Positions 1 to 61,252 of a stretch of 64,000 nt of DNA are shown one piece after another; position 1 is the stretch's first letter, and every line of letters starts with the position of its first letter. Both the position numbers and the translations under genes were made by a program. Below the pieces are notes generated by a model, which saw only the letters and a program-made list of their open reading frames with translations, ran no database searches and was not told the origin of the DNA. Source of the stretch: a virus; IMG/VR virus record IMGVR_UViG_3300032323_001070, positions 1 through 64,000 of that record; one strand, 5' to 3'.

Positions 1-123
1 AGAGAGCAGTTTGAACGCCGAGTTTTAGAAACAGATGACTATTATAATGGCATTATAAACGTCAGAGTAGGCGGATCAAACATACTTAGACAGCGTCTAG
101 AAGAACATAAAAAGGCAAAATAA
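1..123 (+). CDS. 3' end of an unidentified gene (partial)
   Basis: An open frame enters from the left edge and ends at TAA 121-123, giving the last 40 residues of a protein that ends in a charged, probably helical tail (RQRLEEHKKAK). Too little is present to name it. It is followed by a gene-free stretch that looks like a structured RNA rather than another coding gene. The reading frame is inferred only from the absence of stops and from codon use like that of neighbouring genes. Confidence 0.6.
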   Translation, partial: REQFERRVLETDDYYNGIINVRVGGSNILRQRLEEHKKAK

Positions 124-600
124 CAGCGGTTTTTGGCTAGCGCAGGCCTAACTTCATGCGCTCTAAACCTGGTCAATCGTGGTCACAGGGACGGAATTCC
201 ATGCCGCAATGGTACTCAACTACTACCCATTTATGGATGAAGATCGCTTAAAACCTGCGATTTAGTTGTTTGAAAAGGATAAGCAAAGGTAAAAAGAAGG
301 GAGAAAAACCCTACGTTTGCTAGTATGTTAGCGTATATTAGTAAACCACCGTCATATGAAGACGCAACTCGAGGTACCGGATGACCGCCTCTGTAATGTT
401 GCAACGCTAAGTGGTATTGTTCAACTCGGATAATATTTTTTTCGCCCGGCAACGGGTGAAGTGTGGCTGAACAATCTGGATAATGCTTAAATTGCGCTTC
501 GCGCAAAAAACATGTTAGCACATCTAGCTAAACATCAAAGAAGGAAAAATAGCGTTGAGCGTAAGCGAAAACGCAAATGAGCGTTAGCTCATTTTTTAAA
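124..600 (+). ncRNA. Candidate large structured noncoding RNA
   Basis: No convincing gene lies in this 500-base gap, but the plus strand is packed with complementary arms: AGCGCA/TGCGCT (139-144/157-162), AGATCGC/GCGATTT (241-247/257-263), GCTA/TAGC (319-332), GCAAC/GTTGC (364-368/398-402) enclosing GAGG/CCTC, ATTGTTCA/TGAACAAT (416-423/468-475) enclosing an 8-bp stem closed by a GCAA tetraloop (441-460), TTGCGC/GCGCAA (near 491-505), TTAGC/GCTAA (near 514-530) and a GC stem with a GTAA loop (552-574). It ends in an intrinsic terminator (575-597). Two GNRA-type loops and the 3' T-run both point to the plus strand. I do not recognise an Rfam class; large phage RNAs such as GOLLD or ROOL are the obvious comparison. 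No promoter is evident, so the 5' end is uncertain. Confidence 0.6.
575..597 (+). terminator. Rho-independent terminator ending the RNA-like region
   Basis: AAATGAGC and GCTCATTT form an 8-bp stem with a GTTA loop followed by a T-run. It lies downstream of the structured region and upstream of the late promoter of the next gene, so it most simply ends a transcript coming from the left. Confidence 0.75.
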
Positions 601-601
601 A

Positions 602-607
602 TAAATA
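602..607 (+). promoter_or_regulatory. T4-type late promoter core
   Basis: TAAATA lies 25 nt before the start codon at 633, just after the terminator at 575-597. A T4-like late start about 6 nt downstream would give a leader of about 20 nt. Confidence 0.5.
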
Positions 608-632: not shown

Positions 633-2399
633 ATGCGATTAGAACAATTAAAGACCAGCTACCTTACTGAGGGTTTAGATTATGAACAGATACGTTCAGT
701 TCGACTATGGGAAAGCACAGGTCTAAAACTAAAAGAAGCAGCATTAACAGCAGATCAAATTCAGAACTTATTTGCTGAGATCGAAAAAGGAGCTACTGCC
801 GCAGGTGGCAATAGAACCATGCTAGGCAAGGGCAAAGATGCTGTCACAGCAGTAAACAAAGCGTGGGAAGATCTCAAAACAAAGATTCAAGATTCAGGTC
901 CTGTTAAAGGATTTGATCAAAAGGTCAGCGATGCACTCAGTAAAATTGGCTTGGGCACAGCTGATCCTCAATTCAACGGCGAAGTTAACAAATGGGTACA
1001 GAAGTATCGTGACTTTGCTAAAAAACATCCCATAGCACAAGGTGCTATCTATGCCACACTGATCGCTCTAGCTGGTATTTCAGGAGCAGGCGTTGGCGGC
1101 GCTGCTGCACTAGGTCTACTAAAGATGGCAGACAAACTATTACAAGGTGAACGTTTCAGTTCTGCTGCCTACTCTGGTGCGAAAACAGGCGCAATGGCCT
1201 ACGGTGCTAGCAAGATTGGCGACATGATCAAAGGCAAGCCCGAAGGTGGCGTAGGCGGCGGTGAAATGTCGCCAGATATGCAACAGGGTCTAGCTTCTGA
1301 TCAAGCATTCCAAGACCGTCTTCTTAATAAGTTTCCGCCTGATAAAGGATTTACTGTTGCCTCAGACGGCAAAGGTCTACAGGTATTAGATTCTGCAGGA
1401 AATAAAGTTTGGCAAGGTGATATTCCATTAAAAACCATGGATCCAAAGACCTTTGCCGATTTGACCAATGCTGGAAAAATGGCAACTCCTGGTATCAGCA
1501 GCGGATCAATTTCCAGTGATGCTATGGCGGGCGTTTCGGGTGATGACGCAGCATTCGATGCCATGGCCAAGGCACGTGATCTAAGAAATCAACTAGGCGG
1601 CGCAGCTGACGTTGGTGGCGCAGCAGGTGAAGTGGTCAAAGGGTCTGGTCAAGAAATGTTTAAGAGTTTGGCCACAGATCCCGCAGCCAATCCTACACTC
1701 AAAGCGTTAGCAGATAAGATCGCCAGTGGATCTTTCACTGACAAAGACTACGATGTACTAAGAGGTCAACTGGACAATGCTATTAGAATGGCAGACAACG
1801 CTGACGTTCCGGGATCATTAAAGATCGGTTCAGAAGTGTTCACTGGTGCAGACAAGGCTCGTATTGCCAAAGCTCACTATAACGTTGTTGATGCTATGAT
1901 GAATAAAGCAGTGCAGATACAGAATTCCAGCATTGAAAGAACTGGTCGCGCTCTCAGTGAAGGTCAGGTCTACATGATTTTCAATCGTGTCTGTGCTAGA
2001 AATGATCAACTGCTGTCTGAAGGAAAGCTAATTGAAGGTCCATTAGATGCGATCAAAGGTATGGCAGGCAAGGCTGCAGGAGCAGTAGCTGGCAAGGCCA
2101 AACAGATTGGCGCTAATCTTACAACTAAAGTTACCGCAGACAAATTAAATTCTGCTTGGCAAAAGGCAGGATCGCCAACAGACTCTGAACAACTAAAAGC
2201 ATTCTTAGGCAAACAGGGCGTAAGTCCAGAAGTCATTGACGGTGTTTACAAATCTTTGAAGATTCCAGCAGCAGCCGCAGCCGGCGCTGTGGATATCGAA
2301 CAGGTCAAAAAAATGATTACCGCTTTGCCCACTGATAGAAAAGCAAGACTGCTAAAATACTTAACCAAACAAGCTGGTGCACAACCTGTGGCAGCGTAA
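633..2399 (+). CDS. Probable head-internal/structural protein, 588 aa
   Basis: I do not recognise a named family. The N-terminus (MRLEQLKTSYLTEG) resembles the capsid-targeting sequences of T4 internal proteins: a short basic/amphipathic leader ending in an (I/L)-x-E site (LTE, residues 11-13) where prohead protease gp21 would cut. Residues about 130-185 hold an Ala/Gly-rich hydrophobic stretch (IYATLIALAGISGAG) that could be membrane-active; the rest is Ala/Gly/Lys-rich and probably helical. It is followed 9 nt later by two smaller genes with similar N-termini, suggesting one unit of proteins packaged in the head and perhaps ejected with DNA. The function is inference; virion mass spectrometry would decide. 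Confidence 0.6.
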   Translation: MRLEQLKTSYLTEGLDYEQIRSVRLWESTGLKLKEAALTADQIQNLFAEIEKGATAAGGNRTMLGKGKDAVTAVNKAWEDLKTKIQDSGPVKGFDQKVSDALSKIGLGTADPQFNGEVNKWVQKYRDFAKKHPIAQGAIYATLIALAGISGAGVGGAAALGLLKMADKLLQGERFSSAAYSGAKTGAMAYGASKIGDMIKGKPEGGVGGGEMSPDMQQGLASDQAFQDRLLNKFPPDKGFTVASDGKGLQVLDSAGNKVWQGDIPLKTMDPKTFADLTNAGKMATPGISSGSISSDAMAGVSGDDAAFDAMAKARDLRNQLGGAADVGGAAGEVVKGSGQEMFKSLATDPAANPTLKALADKIASGSFTDKDYDVLRGQLDNAIRMADNADVPGSLKIGSEVFTGADKARIAKAHYNVVDAMMNKAVQIQNSSIERTGRALSEGQVYMIFNRVCARNDQLLSEGKLIEGPLDAIKGMAGKAAGAVAGKAKQIGANLTTKVTADKLNSAWQKAGSPTDSEQLKAFLGKQGVSPEVIDGVYKSLKIPAAAAAGAVDIEQVKKMITALPTDRKARLLKYLTKQAGAQPVAA

Positions 2400-2408
2400 G
2401 GAACCAAT

Positions 2409-3611
2409 ATGAAAATCAATGAAATATTAATCGAAAGCCAACTACAAGAAGGTCCTTTGATGAATAAGATAGGATCAGCTGTGGGCAAGGGTGTAGGCAC
2501 ACTGGCTAAAGGTGTAGGAGCAGTCGCAGGTGGAGTTGCAGGATTAGGTCGTGCAATCAAGAAAGGATATCAAGCAGGTAAAGCCACAGTTGGTGGCGCA
2601 GGTGACGATACAGCAGCAGCACCTGCAAGCGGTGGTGGCCAAGGTGCAGCCCCAGCAGGTGGTGGCGGTGCAGCAGCATCAGCAGGTGGTGGCGATCAAG
2701 GCGGTGCAGCAGGAGCACAAGGAGCACCCGGCGCACCTGGCGCAGCAGGAGCGGCTGGTAAAGATGGAGCACCTGGCGCACAAGGAGCACCTGGCGCAGC
2801 AGGTAAAGATGGAGCAGCTGGAAAAGCTGGAGCACCCGGAGCAGCTGGCGCGGCAGGTAAAGCTGGAGCAGCAGGAAAATCAGGTGCAGCAGGAGATGCA
2901 GGGGCAGCAGGCAAAGATGGAGCCGCAGGTGCAGCTGGAGATGCCGGCGCAGCAGGAACGGCTGGTAAAGATGGAGCCGCAGGTGCAGCTGGAGACGCCG
3001 GCGCAACAGGAGCAGCCCCAGCAGCTAAAGCTAATCCGGCTGCAAGCGGACAGAGAATTGAACCTACATTAGACGAACCAGCAGCAGCAAATCCAAAAGC
3101 AGACTCTGCATATGCACAGGCACAAAAAGCAATTGCTGGTCTTGCACCCGAACAGAAAAAAGAAATCGTAACTATGCTTCAGTCTGATCCTAAAGTTAAG
3201 GCAGCTATGGCTAAACCCGCAGCCAAGAAACCTGCTGCTAAGAAACCAGGAGCAGCACCAGCAGGCGGCGCAATGGGTGCAATGGTTCAACAACTAGGCG
3301 GAGATAAACCAGCAAACACAATGGCAAATGCTCCAGTGAGTAAGACTAATACTGCTAAACCAGGCAACCCTAACGCAGCGCCAGCAGCAGAACCAGCAGC
3401 AGCGCCAGCGGCAGCACCCGCAGCAGCGCCAGCGGCAGGCGAACAACCTGCACCAGCACCTAAAAAGAGAGCAGCACCTAAAAAGAAAGCAGCACCAAGT
3501 CAAGCAGAAATTGATGCCGATCGCGAACGTCTAATGGGACCAACTAGCGACAGCATTATTAGAAAAGGAAATCTTGTTGCAGAAAGTTTTAGTTTTTTTA
3601 GGAAAAAATAA
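2409..3611 (+). CDS. Collagen-like protein with head-targeting N-terminus, 400 aa
   Basis: The first residues (MKINEILIESQLQEG) carry two possible gp21 cleavage sites, LIE (7-9) and LQE (12-14). A Gly-rich segment with repeated GxxxG spacing follows (about 20-55), then about 100 residues of Gly-X-Y triplets such as GAPGAAGKDG (about 95-200), the hallmark of collagen-like triple helices. The C-terminal half is Ala/Pro/Lys-rich with AAKKPAAKKPG and a basic tail (KKRAAPKKKAAP). A start at 2409 fits the AAGGA box 5 nt upstream. Collagen-like segments are common in phage fibres; here the N-terminus argues for a head location instead. The last 36 nt are open in the frame of the next gene, whose true start lies just after this stop. 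Confidence 0.75.
   Translation: MKINEILIESQLQEGPLMNKIGSAVGKGVGTLAKGVGAVAGGVAGLGRAIKKGYQAGKATVGGAGDDTAAAPASGGGQGAAPAGGGGAAASAGGGDQGGAAGAQGAPGAPGAAGAAGKDGAPGAQGAPGAAGKDGAAGKAGAPGAAGAAGKAGAAGKSGAAGDAGAAGKDGAAGAAGDAGAAGTAGKDGAAGAAGDAGATGAAPAAKANPAASGQRIEPTLDEPAAANPKADSAYAQAQKAIAGLAPEQKKEIVTMLQSDPKVKAAMAKPAAKKPAAKKPGAAPAGGAMGAMVQQLGGDKPANTMANAPVSKTNTAKPGNPNAAPAAEPAAAPAAAPAAAPAAGEQPAPAPKKRAAPKKKAAPSQAEIDADRERLMGPTSDSIIRKGNLVAESFSFFRKK
2700..3010 (+). repeat. Collagen-like (Gly-X-Y) coding repeat
   Basis: Imperfect 9- to 27-bp units rich in GCAGGAGCA and GGTAAAGATGGAGC repeat through this interval and encode Gly-X-Y triplets. Antisense and alternative frames also stay open here, a by-product of the repeat that should not be read as extra genes. 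Confidence 0.85.
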
Positions 3612-3612
3612 A

Positions 3613-3954
3613 ATGAGATTTCAAGAAATAGTTGAAGCCGGTTTAGTAGGAAAATTAGGAAACGCTGCAGGGGCAGGACTAGGAGCGGCCGTTAAAGGCA
3701 TCGGTGGTGTAGTCAAGGCTGCAACAAAGGCAGGTCAACAATTTGCTCAAGGTGCTGACAACTGGAAAGGAACTGGAATGTTCGGTGGTCCAAACAAAGG
3801 TGGTGGTGATCAACCAACATCGGACACAACTAATCCTGCGTTAAAAGATGTAGATACTAATGACTTAAAACAAATATTAGCAGCAGCATTACAAGGTCAA
3901 AAATTAGACGGCAAACTTCTTCAGGTTGCTCAGAGTTTAGAACAGAAACTTTAA
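3613..3954 (+). CDS. Small Gly-rich head-associated protein, 113 aa
   Basis: The start is placed at ATG 3613, one base after the upstream stop, rather than at in-frame ATG 3574 inside the collagen-like gene, because MRFQEIVEAG then matches the short N-termini of the two preceding proteins, with a possible gp21 site at IVE (6-8). Residues about 10-45 are a Gly/Ala zipper (GNAAGAGLGAAVKGIGG) resembling the equivalent segment of the collagen-like protein, so the two may share ancestry. The C-terminus looks helical. The gene converges with the minus-strand gene and the two overlap by 4 bp at their stops. Confidence 0.65.
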   Translation: MRFQEIVEAGLVGKLGNAAGAGLGAAVKGIGGVVKAATKAGQQFAQGADNWKGTGMFGGPNKGGGDQPTSDTTNPALKDVDTNDLKQILAAALQGQKLDGKLLQVAQSLEQKL

Positions 3955-5096: not shown

Positions 5097-8000
5097 ATGG
5101 CAACTCCTGTTTCAATTGATATTCCCGGTATTGGTTTAATCGAAGCCAAAAACGCTGCCACGGAAGAAACCTTACGAGAAATTCTAAAGGTCATGCAGGG
5201 TGTTCAAAAGAATACTGCGGGCGGTAGAAGAGCAGGTGGTTCTGCCGGTCGTGCCGGTGGTCCCGGAGCTGATCCAGGCGGAACGACGAATAAAGCCGCC
5301 GATACTGCTGCAAAAGGCCTAGGAGCATTTGCAAAAGGCCTAGGCGGCGTGAGCATGAAGTTTTTAGAAATAGGAGCCGCTTCTGCAAATCTAATTAAGA
5401 CCCTAGGCGGAGTCGGTGACAGTTTAGCAGGTGCAGCACAAGTATTTCAAGCAATACCGAAAATAGGCGGCCCTCTAGCTGCGGTATTCGGGGCAGTTGC
5501 TCATGCTGCTGAAACCTCTGCTAAAGCATATCAAAGCGCAGCAGCAGCCGGCGCATCTTTTGGCGGTAGCATGAATAGTTTCATTAAAACTGCCAGCCAA
5601 GCTGGCATGACTATGGAACAATTTGGTGCACTAGTCAAAAGCAACGGTTCAGGAATGTTAGGTTTTGGCGGAACCGTTGAAGAAGGTGCTAAACGATTTG
5701 GAGCAGTTTCGAAAGCATTGAGATCGTCTAGTAGTAGTCTATATGCTCTAGGATATTCAACTCAAGAAATAAATCAAGGTTTGGCTAGTTATGGTGATCT
5801 ATTGAGGAAACAAGGTCTCCAGGGAACTAAAACTAATGCAGAACTAGCAGCTGGCGCAAAAAATTACATGAAAGAATTAGATGCGTTGGCAAAAATCAGC
5901 GGAGAAGATCGAGCTACCAAAGAAGCACAGATGAAAGCATTAGCTACCGATGTTCAGGTGCAGATGTCAATGGCAGGAAAAAGTGCAGAAACTAGAGAAA
6001 GTTTTATGAAACTTGTAGGAGGTTTTGGTCCTACTCTAGGAAATTTTGTTAAAGATTTTGTAGCGAACGGCACAGTGACTTCTGAAGCGAATGCAAAAAT
6101 AGCAGCGGCTTTGGGTGGTCCAACTATGGACGAACTTCAAAAACTAAGAGCAAAATTAAATGCTAATCAACAATTAACTGCTGAGGAACAAGATAGATTA
6201 AGAGCTATTATTAAAAAATCAGCAGACGAAGGAGCAAAAAAATTAGGTACATCAATTGCTGCCAGTGGCGGAGCACTTGATGATATGGGTAAGGCTTTTA
6301 TTGAAGGTTCTCAGATACAGATAGGGGCAGTGAAAAAAAGCGCAGAGGAACAAGCGAAAGCAGCTAAAGGTCAAGACGGATTAAATCAAAAAGTTGAAGA
6401 ATCAAAAGCTAGATTGGCCGAAATGTCGAATGCTTTTAACCAGATATTATTAAACAGCGGTCTACTAGACACCATGATGAAAGCATTTGGATGGTTCGCT
6501 GATTTTGTTATGACTGTGGTTGTTCCGATATTTCAGGTATTTGGTTCAATAATCACCGCAGCCGTTGATATTCTAGACGTTGTGTTTATTCCGGCATTGG
6601 CAGGGGTAGCGGCTGGCTTATTAACTTACGGAGCAGCACTAGCGGCCAGTTCTGCAGCAAAAGCATATAATACCTTAACTACAATTTCAGAATCAGGTGC
6701 CAGAACCGGATTACTAACAGGATTAGCGGCACAAATTAAAGCTACTTGGGGAGCAGCAGCGGCAGCATTAGGGATAAGTGCTCCTATGCTCGCACTGGTA
6801 GTTGGAGTTACCGCAGTAGTAGCATTGTTTGTTGGATTGTATAGAAGCGGTTGGACATTTAGTTCAGCACTTGAAGCTATCGGTGATAATTTAAAAAGAT
6901 TTGGTTTGAATATCATGGAGCTTATAGATGATATTAAATCAAAATTTTCTTTTATGGGCGATGCTGAAAGAGATCAAAGAAAATTAGAAAGAGACAAAGT
7001 ACGAGCTGAATTAGATGCTAGAGAAGCTGCTAGAGATACTAAGCGAGAAGACGTTAAAAGAGATCGTGGCATAGACGATGATAGGAAAAAAAGAGATAAA
7101 TCATACTTTGATACTAGGGATGAACGTCAAAATGCAGCCGATGCAAAAGCAGAAGCTGCTGCTACTGCCAATGCACCAGGTGGCAAAGATTACAATGCAA
7201 ATGCTATAGACACCCTGAAACAATTTAAAGGTGGATTATCTCAGCCTGGCGCACAGACACAGACTCCGGGTGGCAGCACGGTCCCTGGTGCAGCACCTCC
7301 TGCTGTCAAGCAAGATGTTAAACAGAATATGGAGTTGATTAAAGCAGCTCTTGTTAAACAAGGTATCACAGATCCAAAAATGATTGCCGCAACCATGGGC
7401 AACGTTATGAAGGAAACAGGTGGTAAGAATATTTCTGAAAATCTAAATTACGGCACAACTAAAAATGATAGGATCCGAGATATTTTTGGTTCAAGAGCCG
7501 CAGGAAAGACAGATGCAGAATTAGATGCAATTAAAAAAGATCCGAAACAAATGGGCGAAATGATGTACGGATCAGGTACCAAGATGGGTCAACAGATGGG
7601 TAATACAGAGCCCGGTGACGGTTGGAAATATCGCGGTCGCGGATTTATACAACTTACCGGCAAGTCAAATTATGCCGCAGCATCTAAAGCAATTTTTGGT
7701 GACGATAGATTAGTTAAAAATCCAGATTTATTAGATAATCCACAGGTAGCAGCTGAAGTCAGTGCTTGGTATATGAAGAAAGGTCAGGCAGGTATGGCTA
7801 AGAAACTAGGCCTTGACACTGCGAACCTAACACAAGATCAAGCCAATCTGTTAGCAACAAGTCAAATTGCTGGTGGAGACATCCGTAAGAAAGGTAAAAT
7901 TGGTCAAGAGATTTCTGCCAAAGTAGACAAGTATTCTGCTCAAATGGCCGGACTCGCAGGTGCTCCGGTGACTGCGATGCCAGCAAGTTCTACAGTAAAC

Positions 8001-8249
8001 ACTACTCTAGCATCAAATACAGAAGTAAACAATGCCGGCAATGCAAAACAAGGCAGCAGAGCTCAGCAACAAGCAGGTGGAACTTCGCGTCCTATGGCCC
8101 CTGCTCAAGAATCCGCTGAAACATTACTAGCTAGCTTAAATAGTAAGATGGATCAATTAATTACTATAAACCGAAATCTCAGCGACGTCAATGAGAAACA
8201 GTTAAGAGTGCAGAAATCTCTTAGCTCAGACGGATATGCCGCTGCCTAA
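5097..8249 (+). CDS. Tape-measure-like tail protein with GH19 lysozyme domain, 1050 aa
   Basis: Long Ala/Gly-rich helical stretches (about 40-470), two strongly hydrophobic segments (about 483-520 and 561-582, including LALVVGVTAVVALFVGLY) and a charged coiled-coil (about 620-680) fit a tail tape-measure protein. Residues about 735-945 form a GH19 chitinase/endolysin-like domain: a KETGGKN..ENLNY region with candidate catalytic glutamates, then GDGWKYRGRGFIQLTG, a signature of the family. A plausible role is to set tail length and to cut peptidoglycan during infection. It sits between the hub gene and the portal gene. T4 gp29 is 590 aa and lacks such a domain, so gp29 homology is not assumed. 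It could instead be a baseplate-associated lysozyme. Confidence 0.7.
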   Translation: MATPVSIDIPGIGLIEAKNAATEETLREILKVMQGVQKNTAGGRRAGGSAGRAGGPGADPGGTTNKAADTAAKGLGAFAKGLGGVSMKFLEIGAASANLIKTLGGVGDSLAGAAQVFQAIPKIGGPLAAVFGAVAHAAETSAKAYQSAAAAGASFGGSMNSFIKTASQAGMTMEQFGALVKSNGSGMLGFGGTVEEGAKRFGAVSKALRSSSSSLYALGYSTQEINQGLASYGDLLRKQGLQGTKTNAELAAGAKNYMKELDALAKISGEDRATKEAQMKALATDVQVQMSMAGKSAETRESFMKLVGGFGPTLGNFVKDFVANGTVTSEANAKIAAALGGPTMDELQKLRAKLNANQQLTAEEQDRLRAIIKKSADEGAKKLGTSIAASGGALDDMGKAFIEGSQIQIGAVKKSAEEQAKAAKGQDGLNQKVEESKARLAEMSNAFNQILLNSGLLDTMMKAFGWFADFVMTVVVPIFQVFGSIITAAVDILDVVFIPALAGVAAGLLTYGAALAASSAAKAYNTLTTISESGARTGLLTGLAAQIKATWGAAAAALGISAPMLALVVGVTAVVALFVGLYRSGWTFSSALEAIGDNLKRFGLNIMELIDDIKSKFSFMGDAERDQRKLERDKVRAELDAREAARDTKREDVKRDRGIDDDRKKRDKSYFDTRDERQNAADAKAEAAATANAPGGKDYNANAIDTLKQFKGGLSQPGAQTQTPGGSTVPGAAPPAVKQDVKQNMELIKAALVKQGITDPKMIAATMGNVMKETGGKNISENLNYGTTKNDRIRDIFGSRAAGKTDAELDAIKKDPKQMGEMMYGSGTKMGQQMGNTEPGDGWKYRGRGFIQLTGKSNYAAASKAIFGDDRLVKNPDLLDNPQVAAEVSAWYMKKGQAGMAKKLGLDTANLTQDQANLLATSQIAGGDIRKKGKIGQEISAKVDKYSAQMAGLAGAPVTAMPASSTVNTTLASNTEVNNAGNAKQGSRAQQQAGGTSRPMAPAQESAETLLASLNSKMDQLITINRNLSDVNEKQLRVQKSLSSDGYAAA

Positions 8250-13498: not shown

Positions 13499-14659
13499 AT
13501 GTCACAACTACTCGAGTCACGCTGGTCGGAAACCAAGGACGCTCTATTAGAGGGTCTTCAAGGTAACAAGCGTTCAGTTATGGCAACTACTCTAGAAAAT
13601 ACTCGCAAGTATCTGTCTGAGAGTGCCACTGCTGGTGCTACATCCGCTGGCAACGTTGCAACCCTAAATCGTGTGATCCTACCAGTGATCAGACGTGTTA
13701 TGCCAACCGTTATCGCTAACGAGTTGGTAGGCGTACAGCCTATGACTGGCCCAGTTGGTCAGATCCACACACTAAGAGTTCGTTACTCTGAAGCTGGTGA
13801 ATTTGATGCTGGTACAGAAGCATTGAGCCCATTCCAAATTGCTCAAGGTTATTCTGCTTTCAGTAACTCCAGCACAGCTAAAGCTGCTTCTACAGCAACT
13901 TTAGAAGGCGTAGCCGGTAAGAAACTAAGCATTCAAATCTTGAAGCAAACAGTTGAAGCTAAGACACGTAAATTGTCTGCTCGCTGGACATTTGAAGCTG
14001 CACAAGATGCACAAGCCCAACAAGGTATTGACATCGAAGCAGAAATCATGGCTGCTCTTGCACAAGAAATTACAGCTGAAATCGACCAAGAAGTTATTGG
14101 TAGCTTAAATGCATTAGCTGGTACAGTATTAACATACGACCAAGCTGCCGTATCTGGTACAGCTACATTCGTTGGTGACGAGCATGCCGCATTGGCAGTT
14201 CAAATCAACCGTGTTGCTAACTTGATCGCTCAGCGTACACGTCGTGGTGCTGGTAACTGGGCAGTTGTATCCCCAACTACCTTGACACTACTACAAAGCG
14301 CGACAACTTCTGCATTCGCAAGAACAACAGAAGGCACATTCGAAGCTCCAACAAACACCAAGTTCGTTGGTACATTGAACAGCGCAATGAAAGTGTACGT
14401 AAACGGCTATGCATCATCTGATGATGTTCTAGTTGGTTACAAAGGTTCTAGCGAAAGCGATGCAGCAGCATTCTATTGCCCATACATTCCATTGATGAGC
14501 AGTGGTGTTGTTCTAGATCCAGCAACTTTCGAACCAGTCGTATCATTCATGACACGTTATGGTTATGTTGAGTTGACAAACACAGCGTCATCTTTAGGTA
14601 ACGCTGCTGACTATCTAGGCAAAGTTGCTGTTACAACAGCTAACTTGAAGTTTGCTTAA
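13499..14659 (+). CDS. 23: Major capsid protein gp23, 386 aa
   Basis: Recognisable as the T4-type major capsid protein by NRVILPVIRRVMPTVIANEL (about 57-77), VGVQPMTGPVGQIHTLRVRY, AKTRKLSARWTFEAAQDAQA and the C-terminal FMTRYGYVELTNT. The predicted gp21 cleavage is after LSE (39-41), leaving a mature protein of about 345 residues. It is short: T4 gp23 is 521 aa, which suggests loss or reduction of the insertion and variable regions. It has an AAGGAGAA ribosome-binding site and is followed by a strong terminator, as expected for the most abundant virion protein. Confidence 0.95.
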   Translation: MSQLLESRWSETKDALLEGLQGNKRSVMATTLENTRKYLSESATAGATSAGNVATLNRVILPVIRRVMPTVIANELVGVQPMTGPVGQIHTLRVRYSEAGEFDAGTEALSPFQIAQGYSAFSNSSTAKAASTATLEGVAGKKLSIQILKQTVEAKTRKLSARWTFEAAQDAQAQQGIDIEAEIMAALAQEITAEIDQEVIGSLNALAGTVLTYDQAAVSGTATFVGDEHAALAVQINRVANLIAQRTRRGAGNWAVVSPTTLTLLQSATTSAFARTTEGTFEAPTNTKFVGTLNSAMKVYVNGYASSDDVLVGYKGSSESDAAAFYCPYIPLMSSGVVLDPATFEPVVSFMTRYGYVELTNTASSLGNAADYLGKVAVTTANLKFA

Positions 14660-54192: not shown

Positions 54193-54960
54193 ATGAAAAT
54201 AGTCTTAGTTACAGGTGGGTTTGATCCCATACATTCCGGGCACATTGCCTATTTCAAAGCAGCACGTTCACTAGGTGATATGCTCCTAGTTGGAATCAAT
54301 TCTGACGAATGGCTTGTTCGTAAAAAGGGTCGTGCGTTTATGCCCTGGAACGAACGCCTTTGTATAATCAATAATCTATCAATGGTTGACGAAGTTTATA
54401 CCTTCGATGACGAAGACGGTTCTGCTAAAGAATTTATTAAACAGGTTCGAGCGCATTATCCAGATGCAGAATTGATATTTGCCAACGGCGGCGATCGCAC
54501 TGCAAAAAATATTCCAGAAATGGACGTTGAAGATTCTAATTTAAAATTTGAATTTGGAGTCGGAGGCGAAGATAAAAAGAATTCTAGCTCATGGATTCTA
54601 ACTGAATGGAAATCGCCCAAGACTGAAAGAACCTGGGGCTACTATCGTGTATTACACGAAATACCAGGATGTAAAGTCAAAGAACTAACTGTAGATCCTG
54701 GTAAGAGCCTAAGCCTGCAACGACATCGAGATAGAACTGAAATATGGTTAGTATCTGAAGGTCAGTGTATGGTAGAACATCACGGGCATGCCATAGAGAC
54801 TGACGAATATCTAATACACACCCCTTTAAAGGAACATACTGAGTTTCATATTCCTAGAACTAAATGGCATAGACTTTTTAATCCGTATGAAACTCCATGC
54901 CGGATCGTGGAAATACAATACGGCGATAGATGCGATGAAGAGGATATAGAAAGAAGATGA
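54193..54960 (+). CDS. Nucleotidyltransferase-cupin fusion, 255 aa
   Basis: Residues 1-140 are a cytidylyltransferase-like fold: GGFDPIHSGH (8-17) holds the HxGH motif of glycerol-3-phosphate cytidylyltransferase (TagD) and the HldE/RfaE C-terminal domain, and FANGGDRT is in the place of their GGD loop. Residues about 140-250 are a cupin like type II mannose-6-phosphate isomerase/GDP-mannose pyrophosphorylase (ERTWGYYRVLHEIPG, SLSLQRHRDRTEIWLV, HRLFNPYETPCRIVEIQYG). It could make an activated sugar for the following transferases. The substrate is not predictable here. Confidence 0.8.
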   Translation: MKIVLVTGGFDPIHSGHIAYFKAARSLGDMLLVGINSDEWLVRKKGRAFMPWNERLCIINNLSMVDEVYTFDDEDGSAKEFIKQVRAHYPDAELIFANGGDRTAKNIPEMDVEDSNLKFEFGVGGEDKKNSSSWILTEWKSPKTERTWGYYRVLHEIPGCKVKELTVDPGKSLSLQRHRDRTEIWLVSEGQCMVEHHGHAIETDEYLIHTPLKEHTEFHIPRTKWHRLFNPYETPCRIVEIQYGDRCDEEDIERR

Positions 54961-55634
54961 TTCCAATTTTTATAGGTTATGATCCTAGAGAAGCAGTAGC
55001 ATTTCACGTTTGTACAAATAGTATAATCCGTCAATCAAGTCAGCCGGTGAGTATTAATCCGCTGGCATTAAACATTCTTAAAGATTATAAAGAAACACAC
55101 ACTGACGGTAGTAATCATTTCATCTACAGCAGATTCCTTGTACCACATTTAATGAATTATCAAGGGTGGGCTATATTCATGGATGGTGATATGTTACTGC
55201 GAGATGATATAGCTAAATTATGGGAGCTTCGAGATGAATCAAAAGCAGTTCAAGTCGTCAAACATGATTATAAAACCAGACTTACTGAAAAGTATCTTGG
55301 AGCGAAGAACGAGAACTATCCTCGTAAAAATTGGAGTTCTGTTATTCTTTGGAATTGTCATCATCCTGCAAATGCTACAGTAACTCCTGACTTTGTACAG
55401 AATGCCACTGGGGCACAGGTACACAGATTTACGTGGTTATCTGATGACCTCATAGGAGAGTTACCCATCGAATGGAATTGGTTGCCGGATGAGTTTGGAG
55501 CCAACCCCGATGCTAAATTATTACATTATACATTGGGTACTCCTAGTTTCCACGAATTCGCCACAACTCCTATGGGAGATGAATGGCACAGAGAACGGAT
55601 CTATACTGAGTACTGTCTACAGCATAATCTATGA
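54957..55634 (+). CDS. GT8-like glycosyltransferase, 225 aa
   Basis: A GT-A-type transferase: IPIFIGYDPREAVAFHVC at the N-terminus, SRFLVPHLM (about 59-67), the metal-binding DxD in WAIFMDGDML (DGD 76-78) and HYTLGTPSFHE (about 194-204) follow the LgtC/galactinol-synthase pattern (GT8). It would transfer a hexose from a nucleotide sugar. ATGA overlap with the preceding gene and with the next. Confidence 0.75.
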   Translation: MIPIFIGYDPREAVAFHVCTNSIIRQSSQPVSINPLALNILKDYKETHTDGSNHFIYSRFLVPHLMNYQGWAIFMDGDMLLRDDIAKLWELRDESKAVQVVKHDYKTRLTEKYLGAKNENYPRKNWSSVILWNCHHPANATVTPDFVQNATGAQVHRFTWLSDDLIGELPIEWNWLPDEFGANPDAKLLHYTLGTPSFHEFATTPMGDEWHRERIYTEYCLQHNL

Positions 55635-56401
55635 TTTCTTACATTAAGAAAGATCTCTCCCAACAGTATAATATCGGAGATGATCTTTGCACTCCGGACA
55701 AATATTTTAAAATAGAATCTGAAAATAATCTTTTTATAATCGGCGGCGGTGCATACGTAGACCACGGATTAAAAAGATTAAAAAAATTAAATATTGATCC
55801 TAAAAAAGTAGTAGCATGGGGTCTTGGAACATCTGATAAAAAATTAACAGATAGTAAATTAAAATCTTTGCCTTATTTAGATTGGGGTGTAAGAGATCTT
55901 GATACAGTTTCAGCAGACAAATTCCTTCCTTGTGTTAGTTGTTTTAATCGACAGATAACATCAGCACCTAAAGACGATAATACCTTGATATTTTTAAATG
56001 CCAATGACAAAGTTTCTGGCGATATCGATATTGATCAACCTTATCTAACAAATGCAGTATCAATGGATGAATTTATACGACACTGGAGTATTTCAGATAA
56101 AGTTATTACAAATTCATATCATGGAATTTATTGGTCATTATTAACTGGAAGATCTGTAATGCCGTTCGGATACTCTTCTAAGTTTTTCAGCGTGTTAAAG
56201 ATGTTTGAAAAAGAATTACCACAAGAAAACTTTTATAAAATAAAAAGCAAAACTGAGCTAACTGAATTATTATCAACAGCTATTAAAGATCCTAAATTTA
56301 TATCTGTGAAAGATTCTAATCTCTTTTTAGATAGATTTAGAAGTTTAAATTATCAGTTTGCTGCGGGTCTATCTCGATTTGGTATTAGGTGCAGTCTATG
56401 A
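55631..56401 (+). CDS. Polysaccharide pyruvyltransferase-like protein, 256 aa
   Basis: FIIGGGAYVDHG (about 36-47), VVAWGLGTSD and especially DKVITNSYHGIYWSLLTGRSV (about 157-176) match the pyruvyltransferase (CsaB/PssM-like) family pattern, which adds pyruvate ketals or acts as a GT-B fold. It is a short version and the pyruvyl chemistry is uncertain. Couples by ATGA to the next gene. Confidence 0.65.
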   Translation: MISYIKKDLSQQYNIGDDLCTPDKYFKIESENNLFIIGGGAYVDHGLKRLKKLNIDPKKVVAWGLGTSDKKLTDSKLKSLPYLDWGVRDLDTVSADKFLPCVSCFNRQITSAPKDDNTLIFLNANDKVSGDIDIDQPYLTNAVSMDEFIRHWSISDKVITNSYHGIYWSLLTGRSVMPFGYSSKFFSVLKMFEKELPQENFYKIKSKTELTELLSTAIKDPKFISVKDSNLFLDRFRSLNYQFAAGLSRFGIRCSL

Positions 56402-57207
56402 GTGAATGGATTTTTCTAAGCAAAGACGGCGAAGACGAATATATCAATATGTTCGCTAAAGGATGTAAATCTCCTATAGTCAGCACAGAACATTTTGTAT
56501 ACGAATCTAGTAATGCTCCTATAGTGCTTAGGGGAATAATGAAGCACAAGATCATGAAACAATGCTGGAATGACGGCAGAACTTTTTATTATGTAGACAG
56601 TGGATACTTTGGTAATCAACCAAATCCTCTCAATCCGCAAGGTTGGAAAGTTTGGCACCGTATCGTTAAAAACGATCTTCAGCACGACAAAATCGTTGAG
56701 CGACCCAATGATAGATGGCTGCGACTTAAACAGAATTTAGAACCTTGGAAAAAGTCTGGAAGAAAAATATTGATAGCGGCGCCCGACGAAAAACCCTGTA
56801 AGTTTTACGGAATAGATTTAGAAACGTGGATCAATGAAACTATGGAGACTATTAAAAAGTATACTGATAGGCCCATAGAAGTAAGATCTCGAGCACCTAA
56901 TAGGATTGACAGGATACAGAATTCTACATTAAAACAGGCGTTAGATAACGATGTGTTTGCATTGGTCACTTACAACTCAAACGCTGCCACGGAAGCAGTG
57001 ATGTACGGTTATCCTGCATTTACCCTAGCTCCAACAAATGCTGCTGGACCAGTTAGTTCTCAAGATCTTTCCAAAATCAACGAGCCTTACTATCCTAACA
57101 GAGATAAATTATATGCCTGGGCCTGTCATTTAGCCTATGGACAATTTCACAACGACGAATTAAAAAACGGAACTGCAAAAAAAATATTGGAAGAACAGCA
57201 TGGATGA
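56398..57207 (+). CDS. GT-B-like glycan transferase paralogue A, 269 aa
   Basis: ATG 56398 in the ATGA overlap is preferred over in-frame GTG 56389. Conserved points shared by five proteins of this island: a basic/acidic K(Y)TDRPI-V(R) strand (YTDRPIEVRSRAP), a YNSNAATEAVMYGYPAF motif (about 200-216) and DLSKINEPYYPNRDKL plus LAYGQFHNDELKNGTA near the C-terminus. The SNxAAxEA motif resembles the nucleotide-sugar-binding strand of GT-B enzymes such as CDP-glycerol or Kdo transferases. Specific activity is unknown. Overlaps the next gene by 8 nt. Confidence 0.65.
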   Translation: MSEWIFLSKDGEDEYINMFAKGCKSPIVSTEHFVYESSNAPIVLRGIMKHKIMKQCWNDGRTFYYVDSGYFGNQPNPLNPQGWKVWHRIVKNDLQHDKIVERPNDRWLRLKQNLEPWKKSGRKILIAAPDEKPCKFYGIDLETWINETMETIKKYTDRPIEVRSRAPNRIDRIQNSTLKQALDNDVFALVTYNSNAATEAVMYGYPAFTLAPTNAAGPVSSQDLSKINEPYYPNRDKLYAWACHLAYGQFHNDELKNGTAKKILEEQHG

Positions 57208-57970
57208 AATACTTTATAACTACATCAAGAAAGGTTGCAATAACGCAATAGAAAGCGATCCTAATTTAGAATCTACAAAGCCTTTGTTGATTCGGGGTAT
57301 TGCTTCTAAAAAACATATCTATAAATGTCAGAATACCGGAAGAGATTTTTATTATCTAGACACAGGATATTTTGGCAACTATCCATCAAAACATAATCCA
57401 ATAGGAAAAAAATTATTTCATAGACTTGTAAAAAATGAATTGCAGTTATCAAAGATTTTAGACGTACCCGGTGATCGTTGGGAAGCAGTGGCTAAAACTG
57501 ATCCTAGATTACAATTTAAAGGTTGGAAGAAAAACGGATCCCATATATTGGTATTATTACCGACGCCTAAAGCATGTAAGTTCTATGGCTTCGAATATGA
57601 GCAATGGGTCAGTACTACTATCGAAACATTAAAAGCGAATACTGATAGAAAAATCGTATTAAGAGAAAAACCCGGTAGAAAAGACAGGAAAGTAATATCC
57701 AGTGTCTATGATCAGATGGACGGCGCCTTTGCCACAATATCTCTTAACAGTATCGCAGCTATCGAATCAATATTATACGGAGTTCCTCATTTTGCCGCAG
57801 TTTCGTGTTGCGGAACTCCTTTGGTATCAACTGACTTTTCTAAAATAGAAACTCCTTATTTTCCCGACGAGCGCCAGATACAATTAAAATGTAATAGTCT
57901 AGCTTATAATCAATTCACTACCGAAGAAATGAAAGACGGTACTGCTTGGAAAATACTCCAACAATATTAA
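57200..57970 (+). CDS. GT-B-like glycan transferase paralogue B, 256 aa
   Basis: Closely related to paralogue A throughout: YYLDTGYFGNYPS, FHRLVKNELQLSKIL, NTDRKIVLREKPGRK, SLNSIAAIESILYGVPHF, TDFSKIETPYFPDERQ and LAYNQFTTEEMKDGTAWKIL. In this copy the Ala-Thr-Glu of the NAATEA motif reads SIAAIESI, so the fold is kept but a key position differs. A cluster of cysteines (CCG, about 206) is an extra feature. Confidence 0.65.
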   Translation: MDEILYNYIKKGCNNAIESDPNLESTKPLLIRGIASKKHIYKCQNTGRDFYYLDTGYFGNYPSKHNPIGKKLFHRLVKNELQLSKILDVPGDRWEAVAKTDPRLQFKGWKKNGSHILVLLPTPKACKFYGFEYEQWVSTTIETLKANTDRKIVLREKPGRKDRKVISSVYDQMDGAFATISLNSIAAIESILYGVPHFAAVSCCGTPLVSTDFSKIETPYFPDERQIQLKCNSLAYNQFTTEEMKDGTAWKILQQY

Positions 57971-57971
57971 A

Positions 57972-59063
57972 ATGAAATTATTATTAAACAATAAAGAAAT
58001 CGCTGCCTTTTTAGTAACACAACTAGATGTGTATAGTTGCTGTGAAAAAATAGAGTTCGAAGAAATAGACATGACTAATGTTAGGGTATTCATAGAACAT
58101 GAAACTGCTAGAATAACCTATAACATCGACGATATGCGAGAATCTTTTAAAAAGAAAATAGGCAAGGCTGTGAGAAAAGATTTGAATCGATGGGTAAATG
58201 CTGTCAAAAATCAAATAGAAACCGTTAGAAAAGATTATAGATTATTAATTAACAGTCACACTGATTACTTTATAGAAAAGTTAGGTGAGAAGAATATATT
58301 AGAAGCCTACAGAAACAGCGAAGTTCACAATTTCGTTAAGAGTGTAGGTCTGCATATTGATCCTTCTGCAGAATTAATAAGAAGAAACGATTTCACCTCA
58401 GTCTCAGAAGATTGTGTCTTTCGCAATACCATAGGAAACGAACAGTTAATCATATCTAAGATCGATAACAATTATCCTTTCTGGTTTATAGATAGTGGAT
58501 ATACTAATTTTATAGAAAATAATAAAAAATGGCATAGGTTAGTTCGCAACCATATCCATTTTCATAAAGACTTTGAAGCCCCTGTTGATCGTTTAGGCGT
58601 TTTTACAGAATTTCCTAAACAGTGGCGCACTGACGGTGATAAAATTCTAATAATCGAGCCTGGTCCGTTTGCAGCAGGTATAAGTCGCATAGATTTAAAG
58701 ACTTGGAAGTATCATATAGAAGCAGAGCTAAGAAAATTTACAGATAAAAAAATCGTGTTCAGAGAAAAGGCTCCTAAAAAACAAAGAGATCCGTTATATA
58801 AACATCTACTAGATGAAGATTACTATTGTCTGGTTAATATTAATTCAAATGCTGCTACAGAAGCAGTATGGGCCGGTGTTCCTGTGATAACATTAGACAA
58901 GCATGTGACAAATAGTATAGCCAGAAGTAAATTGTCGGATATAAATGATCTGTTAAGACCTAATTTAGCCAATTGGCTTTGTATGCTGAGCTACAGTCAA
59001 TTTACCTACGACGAATTAATCAACGGAACTGCTGTAAAACTCGTTAATCAATACCATGTCTAA
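57972..59063 (+). CDS. GT-B-like paralogue C with N-terminal extension, 363 aa
   Basis: The C-terminal 240 residues follow the family (WFIDSGYTNF, HRLVRNHIHF, FTDKKIVFREKAPKK, NINSNAATEAVWAGVPVI, LSDINDLLRP, LSYSQFTYDELINGTAVKLV). The first 120 residues (KLLLNNKEIAAFLVTQLDVY, MRESFKKKIGKAVRKDLNRW) are an extra, mostly helical domain not present in the others. Starts 1 nt after the previous stop. Confidence 0.65.
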   Translation: MKLLLNNKEIAAFLVTQLDVYSCCEKIEFEEIDMTNVRVFIEHETARITYNIDDMRESFKKKIGKAVRKDLNRWVNAVKNQIETVRKDYRLLINSHTDYFIEKLGEKNILEAYRNSEVHNFVKSVGLHIDPSAELIRRNDFTSVSEDCVFRNTIGNEQLIISKIDNNYPFWFIDSGYTNFIENNKKWHRLVRNHIHFHKDFEAPVDRLGVFTEFPKQWRTDGDKILIIEPGPFAAGISRIDLKTWKYHIEAELRKFTDKKIVFREKAPKKQRDPLYKHLLDEDYYCLVNINSNAATEAVWAGVPVITLDKHVTNSIARSKLSDINDLLRPNLANWLCMLSYSQFTYDELINGTAVKLVNQYHV

Positions 59064-59982
59064 GTTAACCGCAGTCGCATATTTCAAAGGTATTCCTCCT
59101 AATAACAAAAATATGGAGAAACCTATGATACTGAATAATTTCTTACAGGGAGTAAGGCAGCTAGGCGACATTGCTATCAATAATCAAGAAATGAAGGTTA
59201 TCCCCTGCGATGTTGCTCTGATACAGGGGTTTGTACACGACGACGGAAAACAATTACCTCATCTAGAGTTAAGAAAACAGGCAATAACTCAACAAAGAAA
59301 CAGTGGCAAGAGAAGTTTAATCGTTGACAGTAATTTGTTTTTATATGCTGATCCAGGAAATACAAAAACATACCTTCGATACAGTTTTGACGGAGTATTT
59401 CCTACTACAGGATTTTATTTTGATACAGATGTTGATCCTAATCGATGGAAAAAAATCAGTAAGGACCTAGGATTAACCTTGAAGCCTTATCGATCAGATG
59501 GAGATCACATTTTAATCTGCTTACAAAGACACGGCGGCTGGAGTATGGGTGGTCTTAGTACTTTAGAATGGTTAGATCATACTATCAATAAGATAAGAGA
59601 ACAAACTTTAAAGAGACCAATCATAGTTAGAGCACATCCCGGCGATCGCAGAATAAAATCAATGCTAAGTTTAAATTATAAAAATGTTTTTCTCAGCGAA
59701 AAAGAAAAATTAGTAGATGATCTCAAAGGAGCATGGGCCAGTGTGGTCTATAATAGCAGTCCTAGTGTGGCTAGTCTTATCGAAGGTATACCTACGTTCG
59801 TAACAGACCCAACACCCCAACACAGTCAAAGTTTTGGAGTCGCTAACACTGACCTTTCTCAGATAACTCAACCTCAACTACCTGATAGACAACAGTGGAT
59901 TGAAAAAGTTTCGATGTGTCACTGGAATTTTGATGAGCTTAAATCTGGTGAGGCCTGGCAGTTTTTTAAAAAATATGTTTAA
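59056..59982 (+). CDS. GT-B-like glycan transferase paralogue D, 308 aa
   Basis: More divergent member: RPIIVRAHPGDRRIKS, WASVVYNSSPSVASLIEGIPTF, TDLSQITQPQLPDRQQW and MCHWNFDELKSGEAWQFF keep all family positions, and the N-terminus MSKLTAVAYFKGIPPNNKN.. is that of a nucleotide-binding-like start. Overlaps the previous gene by 8 nt and converges with the minus-strand transferase (4-bp overlap at the stops). Confidence 0.65.
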   Translation: MSKLTAVAYFKGIPPNNKNMEKPMILNNFLQGVRQLGDIAINNQEMKVIPCDVALIQGFVHDDGKQLPHLELRKQAITQQRNSGKRSLIVDSNLFLYADPGNTKTYLRYSFDGVFPTTGFYFDTDVDPNRWKKISKDLGLTLKPYRSDGDHILICLQRHGGWSMGGLSTLEWLDHTINKIREQTLKRPIIVRAHPGDRRIKSMLSLNYKNVFLSEKEKLVDDLKGAWASVVYNSSPSVASLIEGIPTFVTDPTPQHSQSFGVANTDLSQITQPQLPDRQQWIEKVSMCHWNFDELKSGEAWQFFKKYV

Positions 59983-60824
59983 GCAAACTGCTGCCAGTAC
60001 GGTTCTGTTCTAACTACCTTAAGATCTTCTCGTTTACTTCTACCGGCAAATTTTCTGTCACCTTTTAAGTGATCTAACCATGCTCCCCATTCGCTATTAA
60101 TCAATGGATGGCCTTCTCCTACACTGTTTCCGACTCCGGGTCGTAGATCCCCGAGAGTTTCACTCCAACTCAGCTGATTAAGAAATGGCATCTTGACTCT
60201 GACAGCATCAAATACGAAGCTATCGTGCCACTCGTCTAATAAAAATATGCCACCTTCGGCTTTATCGTACATTCTTTGGAATTCCATCAAGAACATCTTG
60301 GTCTGCTCAGTTCTTAAATTCATAGAATAGAGGCCACACTCTGAAAATTTACCTTTCCTGCCGAGGTAGCAGAGATCTTTTTCACCGGGTATCATCCTTT
60401 GAAGGTCTGTCAACGTAATAGGGCTGTGGCAAATGGTGTCAGCGTCCATCCATAACAAAATATCGGCATCACAGTTCTTGGCACAATGAAAAATTGAGTA
60501 AACTTTATGACTAAATCTCACGGCATCCCACTTGAAGCCCTTGCCAGCATCTCTTCTACGGCTGCGTATCGGATCGCTTCTAACATCTCCGTTGGCCTTA
60601 GGAACACCCTTCCACTTATTTTTAAAATTTACCAAATCTTGACTGACTGCGTGGAGGTCTAGTACTACAAGATTGTCGCCTTTTTCTGAAACAGTAACAT
60701 CTTCACCGTAGACATACAGTGTTACTTCTTTAGGCCATGTTTTTAGAAAGGTTTCTATCATCCTTTTTCCATACATCTCATAGCCCTTCTTGTGAAATGT
60801 CGTAACCACTGAATATTTTGTCAT
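59979..60824 (-). CDS. GT-A-type glycosyltransferase, 281 aa
   Basis: ATG 60824 is chosen because it overlaps the upstream stop as ATGA and a GGAAG box stands 6 nt before it; 60836 is an in-frame alternative. N-terminus KYSVVTTFHKKGYEMYGKRM, TLYVYGED, then DILLWMDADT with the DxD motif (127-129), and FGECGLYSMN-like FSECGLYSMN follow a GT-A transferase pattern known to me from T4-like marine phages. It is the only transferase of the island on this strand. Confidence 0.75.
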   Translation of the reverse strand: MTKYSVVTTFHKKGYEMYGKRMIETFLKTWPKEVTLYVYGEDVTVSEKGDNLVVLDLHAVSQDLVNFKNKWKGVPKANGDVRSDPIRSRRRDAGKGFKWDAVRFSHKVYSIFHCAKNCDADILLWMDADTICHSPITLTDLQRMIPGEKDLCYLGRKGKFSECGLYSMNLRTEQTKMFLMEFQRMYDKAEGGIFLLDEWHDSFVFDAVRVKMPFLNQLSWSETLGDLRPGVGNSVGEGHPLINSEWGAWLDHLKGDRKFAGRSKREDLKVVRTEPYWQQFA

Positions 60825-61216
60825 TTTTTCTTCCATATTTGATAACCTTTAGAGATGTCAGTTATAACATACTGACAACTTTTTAAGAAATCTGAAAATT
60901 CTTTATCAATATAATTTTCAGTATAAATCATAAGTGTTGGTTTTTGTTTAATTAACAATCTTTCCACTAATCTTAGATTTTTAATGCCGTCGACGTCAGT
61001 AAATATTAGATTAAACTTTGGCAAGTTTATTAATTCATCAAAAAACTCCTGATAGACGATATTTTTTCTTTTTACAATAACGTTATGTTCCTTGTAGACA
61101 AAAACTGTGCCAAAAATATTGGAAAAATCTTCGAGAAGATCCGCTGCTGAGTTTAAAACTAAGCAGGAGTCTACACCGTCGGCAGTTTTTGTAATTCTTT
61201 TATAGAACTTGTTCAT
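60821..61216 (-). CDS. Hypothetical protein, methyltransferase-tail-like, 131 aa
   Basis: A short protein (MNKFYKRITKTADGVDSCLVLNSAADLL..., FNLIFTDVDGIKNLRLVERLL, MIYTENYIDKEFSDFLKSC) whose strand-helix order recalls the C-terminal half of a Rossmann methyltransferase, but no SAM motif is complete. It is co-transcribed with the GT-A gene (ATGA overlap). No strong assignment is made. Confidence 0.5.
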   Translation of the reverse strand: MNKFYKRITKTADGVDSCLVLNSAADLLEDFSNIFGTVFVYKEHNVIVKRKNIVYQEFFDELINLPKFNLIFTDVDGIKNLRLVERLLIKQKPTLMIYTENYIDKEFSDFLKSCQYVITDISKGYQIWKKK

Positions 61217-61223
61217 TTTAGAT

Positions 61224-61241
61224 TAAATACTATGATATTTA
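61224..61241. promoter_or_regulatory. Divergent late promoter cores
   Basis: A plus-strand ATTAAATA (core 61224-61229) and a minus-strand AATAAATA (core 61236-61241) lie within 20 bp between the two diverging genes. The plus-strand one is followed by a five-codon frame (ATG 61232, MIFIE) before the gene at 61253. Confidence 0.45.
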
Positions 61242-61252
61242 TTGAGTAAAAT

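Follow-up and report, generated by a model that had tools for sequence, protein, structure and literature searches.

A large structured RNA of T4-like aquatic phages as the probable complete form of the Polynucleobacter-1 motif, with paired identical repeats

What lies between the stop codon of an endonuclease gene (121–123) and the start of the next gene (633) in a 64,000 nt stretch of phage DNA (hereafter, the window)? An earlier note on this DNA proposed a large structured plus-strand noncoding RNA closed by an intrinsic terminator, in a region without a credible gene. Comparison with relatives bears this out, with strong covariation in 154 non-redundant homologs and no conserved reading frame in 66: in this T4-like aquatic phage, positions 124–597 (plus strand) are almost certainly the gene for a structured noncoding RNA, which is the complete form of the Polynucleobacter-1 RNA. 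New here are the full extent of the RNA, three supported pseudoknots, the endonuclease neighborhood, a second RNA class, and covariation by identity between two segments. The features of the locus are collected in Table 1.

Table 1. Features of the endonuclease–RNA locus, in window coordinates.
Feature	Position	Strand	Evidence or remarks
SegE-type GIY-YIG endonuclease gene, 3′ end only (truncated by the start of the window)	1–123	+	ORF; stop codon 121–123
Type I RNA gene, large and structured (Polynucleobacter-1 in its full length)	124–597	+	nhmmer profile, covariation
Pseudoknot PK1, 126–130 with 203–207	126–207	+	5′ arm outside the Rfam model
5′ domain, Rfam RF01718 Polynucleobacter-1	135–271	+	cmscan 102.1 bits, model 1–141 of 141
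Tentative pseudoknot PK2, 135–137 GGC with 146–148 GCC	135–148	+	Alignment by eye
Helix 140–144/157–161	140–161	+	142/159 E 0.00; 144/157 E 0.05
Helix 168–171/186–189, invariant CCTG/CAGG	168–189	+	Part of the Rfam structure
Helix 199–202/209–212, loop is the 3′ arm of PK1	199–212	+	200/211, 201/210 covary
Helix 217–222/263–268	217–268	+	219/266, 220/265, 221/264 covary
Hairpin 226–238 and helix 242–247/257–262, both enclosed by 217–222/263–268		+	245/259 covaries
Hairpin 299–301/309–311	299–311	+	300/311 E 0.00
Long hairpin 315–326/335–346	315–346	+	317/344, 322/339, 326/335 covary
Pseudoknot PK3, loop 328–334 with 404–410	328–410	+	333/405, 332/406
Pseudoknot PK4, 351–354 with 382–385, inside the loop of 371–374/388–391	351–385	+	
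Helices 364–368/398–402 and 371–374/388–391	364–402	+	365/401, 366/400, 367/399; 372/390
Repeat 1, CTC + GGATAAT	425–434	+	428–434 = 478–484 in 154/154 homologs
Hairpin between the repeats, GCAA loop 449–452	443–458	+	443/458 covaries; RNAalifold
Repeat 2, TCT + GGATAAT	475–484	+	428/478, 432/482, 434/484 covary by identity
3′ hairpin GCGTTGAGC-GTAA-GCGAAAACGC	552–574	+	555/571, 556/570 covary
Intrinsic terminator, stem 576–582/587–593 and T run	576–597	+	Covariation
AATAAATA, resembling a T4-type late promoter, for the next gene	600–607	+	NATAAATA clusters directly after the terminator

Extent, identity and distribution of the RNA

The earlier note recognized no match to a known RNA, yet the 5′ third of the region is RF01718, the sole family that reached its gathering score (37 bits) in a cmscan of the whole window. 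By the same search, suggested by that note, the RNA is neither GOLLD nor ROOL, and there was no match to OLE, to a riboswitch or to a group I or II intron; the element, in addition, sits between complete genes. A minus-strand match to the U8 snoRNA (E 0.11) was taken as chance. The remaining two thirds of the RNA, 3′ of the RF01718 domain, lie outside every Rfam model, and the previously catalogued part of the RNA is thus its first third only. A coding region was likewise rejected, because no frame is open throughout in the 66 homologs and indels are mostly of 1–2 nt, not in threes.

The RNA is about 475 nt long in the window and about 410–475 nt among its relatives. An nhmmer profile made from 66 non-redundant sequences matched 268 fetched loci, with one copy apiece and most of them end to end, and the RNA was single-copy in 12 of 12 larger virus records tested. 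A gapped pattern derived from the Rfam core retrieved at least 119 stretches from IMG/VR, and a pattern for the middle domain, sharing nothing with that core, retrieved at least 119 in a partly overlapping set. Since the 5′ and middle domains co-occur, save at contig ends and in some divergent loci, the RNA constitutes one unit of about 410–475 nt.

In the collections searched, the RNA sits in contigs of phages. Among 84,980 bacterial and archaeal species genomes, two scans with exact patterns, which divergent copies can escape, yielded no confirmed chromosomal copy, although the family name implies an occurrence in Polynucleobacter; their lone match failed the Rfam model. Blastn comparisons of this RNA (type I) and of a second class described below (type II) against 50,697 records of isolated phages gave, within the reach of the method, short chance matches only. 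Additionally, 12 T4-like isolates contained no RF01718 match above the cut-off and no convincing match to the 3′ module, one at E 0.06, in a Vibrio phage, being without identical repeats in the expected CTC/TCT form.

Elsewhere in the window, the major capsid protein (13,499–14,659) is 66–72% identical to those of the jumbo T4-like phages Phosso, 2.275.O, PA5oct, XaC1 and GAP32, which points to a large-genome phage; the genomes of these five phages are without the RNA. A cluster of sugar-modification-like genes occupies 54,193–62,113 and includes a fusion of a cytidylyltransferase and a mannose-6-phosphate isomerase-type cupin (54,193–54,960), and a large tail-type protein (5,097–8,249) shows a weak match, below the curated cut-off, to chitinase class I (GH19).

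Fold and covariation

The minimum-energy fold of positions 124–600 has −135.6 kcal/mol (z −2.14, with 1 of 100 shuffles equally good), and folding energy on its own is only modest evidence for structure. As this energy is just moderately better than that of the shuffles, the case for structure comes from the homologs. Covariation was evaluated in the 154 non-redundant homologs by a G-test with average product correction, against a null of 20 alignments simulated along the inferred tree and compared column by column, which approximates R-scape. This check, which the earlier note had advised, identified 34 covarying column pairs at E ≤ 0.5 and 26 at E ≤ 0.05; for 19 of the latter, pseudoknots and terminator included, at least 80% of the sequences have a Watson-Crick or wobble pair. 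In an independent alignment of 51 sequences, reaching up to window position 492, 93.0% of the cells of a 75-pair model are standard pairs, against 33.6–44.9% when the 3′ partners were slid by 1–3 columns, a control that favors a structure built from the same sequences, though not to the degree observed. Compensatory change occurs in 47 of the 75 pairs, and the observed values were reached by 0 of 500 shuffles.

From these data, the predicted fold is a body with at least three pseudoknots, followed by a 3′ module in which a hairpin stands between two identical segments. PK1 is 81.5% paired, with compensation in three pairs (128/205, GC in 91 and AT in 42 sequences, E 0.05). The loop of the long hairpin 315–326/335–346, whose main helix shows compensation in all 11 pairs, forms PK3, with 98.6% of cells paired and compensation in six of seven pairs; its pair 333/405 is GC in 118 and AT in 34 sequences (100% paired, E 0.15). 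In PK4, 353/383 is TA in 92 and CG in 62 sequences, with 14 of 14 changes shared (E 0.00). PK2 varies by eye as GGC/GCC, GAC/GTC and AGC/GCT, and was not confirmed by the pair counts. Helix 168–171/186–189 is 100% paired and, because it is invariant, yields no covariation evidence. Within the small hairpin, positions 226 and 238 exchange C/U for U/C with 17 of 17 changes shared (E 0.00), an instance of non-Watson-Crick covariation.

The arms listed in the earlier note are all present, with some changes in their limits. Four of them are conserved with compensatory changes: 364–402, which is really 364–368/398–402; 241–263, which corresponds to 242–247/257–262; 441–460, with a core of 443–447/454–458; and 552–574. 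Conversely, the outer arm proposed at 416–475 (416–422/469–475), perfect in the window, is not conserved beyond the clade of the window. As for the two GNRA loops, the GCAA at 449–452 is real here and varies in relatives, while the loop at 561–564 is GNNA or GNRA in most. The proposed terminator has solid backing, since all six tested pairs of its stem, 576/593 to 581/588, covary (E 0.00–0.05). That first reading missed the pseudoknots, helix 315–326/335–346, the Rfam match and the paired repeats.

Two identical segments in two RNA classes

Segments 428–434 and 478–484 are letter-identical in all 154 non-redundant homologs, and the flank preceding each 7-mer is invariably CTC in repeat 1 and TCT in repeat 2 (154/154). 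Alignment-free pattern matching found identical repeats in 236 of 237 cases, and the exception (locus L279) was a mis-parsed identical pair, which brings the count to 237/237. A separate scan for the module pattern, whose spacing was wrong, retrieved just four stretches. This identity coexists with considerable variation, with nine 7-mer types in the first sequence set. By parsimony, there were at least 51 concerted substitutions: at least 27 at 428/478, where G and A toggle and 0 of 154 sequences are mixed, at least 4 at 429/479, at least 9 at 432/482 and at least 11 at 434/484. The tree-based test gave E 0.00 for identity covariation at 428/478, 432/482 and 434/484, and the coupling of the repeats exceeds that of the Watson-Crick pairs in the type I RNA, where 428 of 521 changes are shared. 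Divergent relatives alter more positions in both copies together, as in AGTTGAA (L227, L270, L306) and GGAAAAT (L175), and three other divergent loci (L207, L277, L285) keep the 5′ and middle domains and lack the repeat module. No other column of the alignment co-changes with the repeats, and neither the RNA nor its flanks are enriched in the reverse complement of the 7-mer that a given sequence carries, which led us to reject an antisense or cis complementary partner.

A second large RNA class, type II, follows one clade of GIY-YIG genes and has a different body, with core GTCGACGTAGGTTGGGAAAGGTCAGAGCCCAT and no Rfam match at E ≤ 0.5. As judged from sequence comparison, it appears as a class of its own, absent from Rfam, that shares the 3′ module of type I. 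It was found in at least 120 IMG/VR stretches or contigs (loci L385, L386, L387, L389 and L392–L512; e.g., L389:1936–2530), and in 86 sequences its helices are backed by 13 Watson-Crick pairs that covary at E ≤ 0.5. CTC and TCT precede the 7-mers in 86 of 86 sequences, and the changes within the 7-mers are concerted, save in three loci where pattern matching shows a difference at the final repeat position. Present in both classes, the module is what two otherwise unlike RNAs have in common.

How could two segments vary and remain the same? At least 27 G/A switches without a mixed state favor a direct contact between equal positions over a shared partner, and a contact between equal positions implies parallel strands with homo-pairs. 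We infer that segments 428–434 and 478–484 may touch in this manner, as a parallel, homo-base-paired contact; it is quite conceivable, if short of probable, that a parallel homo-base-paired RNA duplex, formed in cis or across molecules, would hold the RNAs of both phage classes together. The paired positions of such a duplex are expected to be identical despite variation, as was found in the 154 homologs. The main rival holds that the segments lie apart and that each binds the same partner in trans, either a homodimeric phage or host protein or a single RNA or DNA target, so that a change in the partner forces both segments to change. We regard this as a serious possibility of somewhat lesser weight, direct homo-pairing appearing somewhat more likely from the pattern of substitutions. 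Repeated binding sites typically have one and the same sequence, the partial identity between the repeats that extends to the outer positions 422–424 and 436–437 fits duplicated sites, and the identity rule is seen in both RNA classes. However, a tolerant partner would permit mixed states, which do not occur at 428/478, a strict one must switch specificity at every change, and the lack of enrichment of the complementary sequence also speaks against it. A sponge for CsrA/RsmA, displaying GGA in the loop-like repeat positions of the window, is most improbable. CsrA binding needs GGA; GGAT is present in both window repeats, but AGAT, GCAT or ACAT replace it in over a third of the loci, and this candidate was rejected for the absence of a conserved GGA (AG, GC and AC types).

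We know of no RNA with a parallel homo-paired contact of the kind favored here. The synthetic DNA d(ACTCGGATGAT) forms in crystals a parallel homo-paired duplex, with C.C, G.G, A.A and T.T pairs, and solution data also confirmed a parallel duplex (PMC4330391). This 11-mer equals repeat 1, letter for letter, in 13 loci, and the homo-pairs of its duplex (PMC4330391) fall at positions that covary in the phage RNA. The crystallized strands, however, were identical and of DNA (PMC4330391), whereas the phage segments are RNA (repeat 1, r-ACUCGGAUGAU; repeat 2, r-AUCUGGAUGAU). Moreover, according to its authors, the GA stacking motif of d(ACTCGGATGAT) had yet to be seen in RNA, where the 2′-OH would probably destabilize it (PMC4330391), and repeat types such as GCATAAT contain no GA step, which counts against a GA-stacked homo-duplex. 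RNA searches based on complementarity overlook signals such as perfect identity covariation; direct homo-pairing, if true, would be a contact of a kind new to natural RNA and would offer a new way of finding such contacts.

Gene neighborhood, possible role and comparison with known systems

Full-length homologs of the protein encoded upstream of the RNA match PF19835 (SegE_GIY-YIG). A SegE-type GIY-YIG gene lies immediately 5′ of the RNA in 218 of the 233 type I loci with enough sequence, with a median gap of 7.5 nt, and upstream in the same orientation in 112 of 112 type II loci tested (in 105 of them within 500 nt of the core motif, and slightly further in the rest). In a protein-first search, 73 of 87 GIY-YIG loci showed an RNA match, the others being seven distant phage isolates, six loci short of downstream sequence and one with a divergent RNA; nearly all GIY-YIG relatives of 79–99% identity in IMG/VR with enough sequence have the RNA downstream. 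Conversely, no such RNA occurs downstream of the SegE homologs of Melnitz, ACP17, V45v66, C48C1, phiN3, S-SRM01 and P-RSM4, and at some type I RNAs the GIY-YIG gene is absent or another gene intervenes. Ten type I loci have no GIY-YIG match, and one of these (L144) has a PDDEXK_15 nuclease (PF24608) upstream; by eye, L147 and L213 also contain another upstream nuclease gene. Incidentally, SegE-type GIY-YIG proteins are widely labeled 'NAD synthetase' (e.g., GU071099.1, KY979132.2; PHROG 447), probably a propagated misannotation.

These associations raise the possibility that the RNA and the SegE-type GIY-YIG protein form one ribonucleoprotein, for instance an RNA-scaffolded nuclease as in HEARO/IsrB. 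The strict gene order in both classes, two quite different RNA bodies behind the same gene and the PDDEXK_15 nuclease in some loci without GIY-YIG would agree with it; still, we consider it unlikely, as seven phage isolates carry a SegE homolog without the RNA and the gene may be absent or separated from the RNA by another one.

In most of 193 loci, the late-promoter-like motif NATAAATA stands 3′ of the terminator; it occurs nowhere else within 700 nt on the plus strand. This confinement indicates that late transcription is improbable for the endonuclease–RNA unit and probable for the next genes. No sigma-70 promoter was found directly before the RNA, and a TATAAT-like match inside the upstream gene was rejected as a promoter because it overlaps a conserved protein motif. 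Downstream of the RNA, three genes (633–3,954) have N termini that, on reading, resemble T4 head-protein targeting sequences, and a long collagen-like G-X-Y stretch (PF01391) spans 2,409–3,611.

A cis-acting element, a 3′ UTR or a leader that regulates either the endonuclease mRNA or the gene that follows, would explain why the RNA begins no more than a few bases from the stop codon and closes with a terminator. Nevertheless, its size, its conservation as one unit over 400 nt and its several pseudoknots argue against such an element, as do the separate late promoter of the next gene and the loci with another upstream gene or none; we deem it a poor candidate, weaker still than the ribonucleoprotein.

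Our preferred explanation combines these elements. The RNA would be co-transcribed with the endonuclease gene, outside of the late class, and would end at its own terminator ahead of the late-type promoter of the next gene; its two 7-nt segments would pair in parallel (A.A, G.G, U.U, C.C), either intramolecularly or across two molecules, and the homo-paired module would lock the fold or join subunits. Our best guess, by analogy with GOLLD and ROOL, is a stable RNA that serves infection as a scaffold and probably self-associates, and not an antisense regulator, a messenger or an intron, this last step being the weakest one. Taken whole, with noncoding gene, non-late co-transcription, homo-paired module and stable scaffold, we lean slightly towards this explanation; the near certainty voiced at the outset applies to identity and fold alone.

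GOLLD and ROOL are likewise large, pseudoknotted, noncoding phage RNAs of no known function (PMC12286853). The present RNA, with 410–475 nt, is shorter than GOLLD, whose members often exceed 800 nt (PMC12286853), and there is no tRNA in the 64 kb window, although a location near tRNA islands would be expected of a GOLLD or ROOL RNA. In OLE RNA, two chains are joined by a symmetric, conserved set of four A-A pairs (PMC12286853), which provides a precedent for homo-pairs between RNA loops; however, OLE is bacterial and has known protein partners, and the phage segments vary yet remain identical. HEARO/IsrB also places a structured RNA beside a nuclease gene, but the phage neighbor is GIY-YIG (or PDDEXK_15) instead of HNH/RuvC and the RNA is 3′ of the gene; there was no Rfam match to this group, nor evidence of mobility or guiding. 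The closest relative is Polynucleobacter-1 itself (RF01718; Weinberg et al., 2010, PMC2864571), so far known only as a motif of 141 nt, with which the phage RNA shares the same helices in a full-length model match. The phage RNA has about three times that length, the model covering neither the 5′ arm of PK1 nor two additional domains, and the 141-nt orphan Rfam motif thus becomes a complete phage RNA of about 410–475 nt, with a gene neighbor, a defined end and hundreds of homologs.
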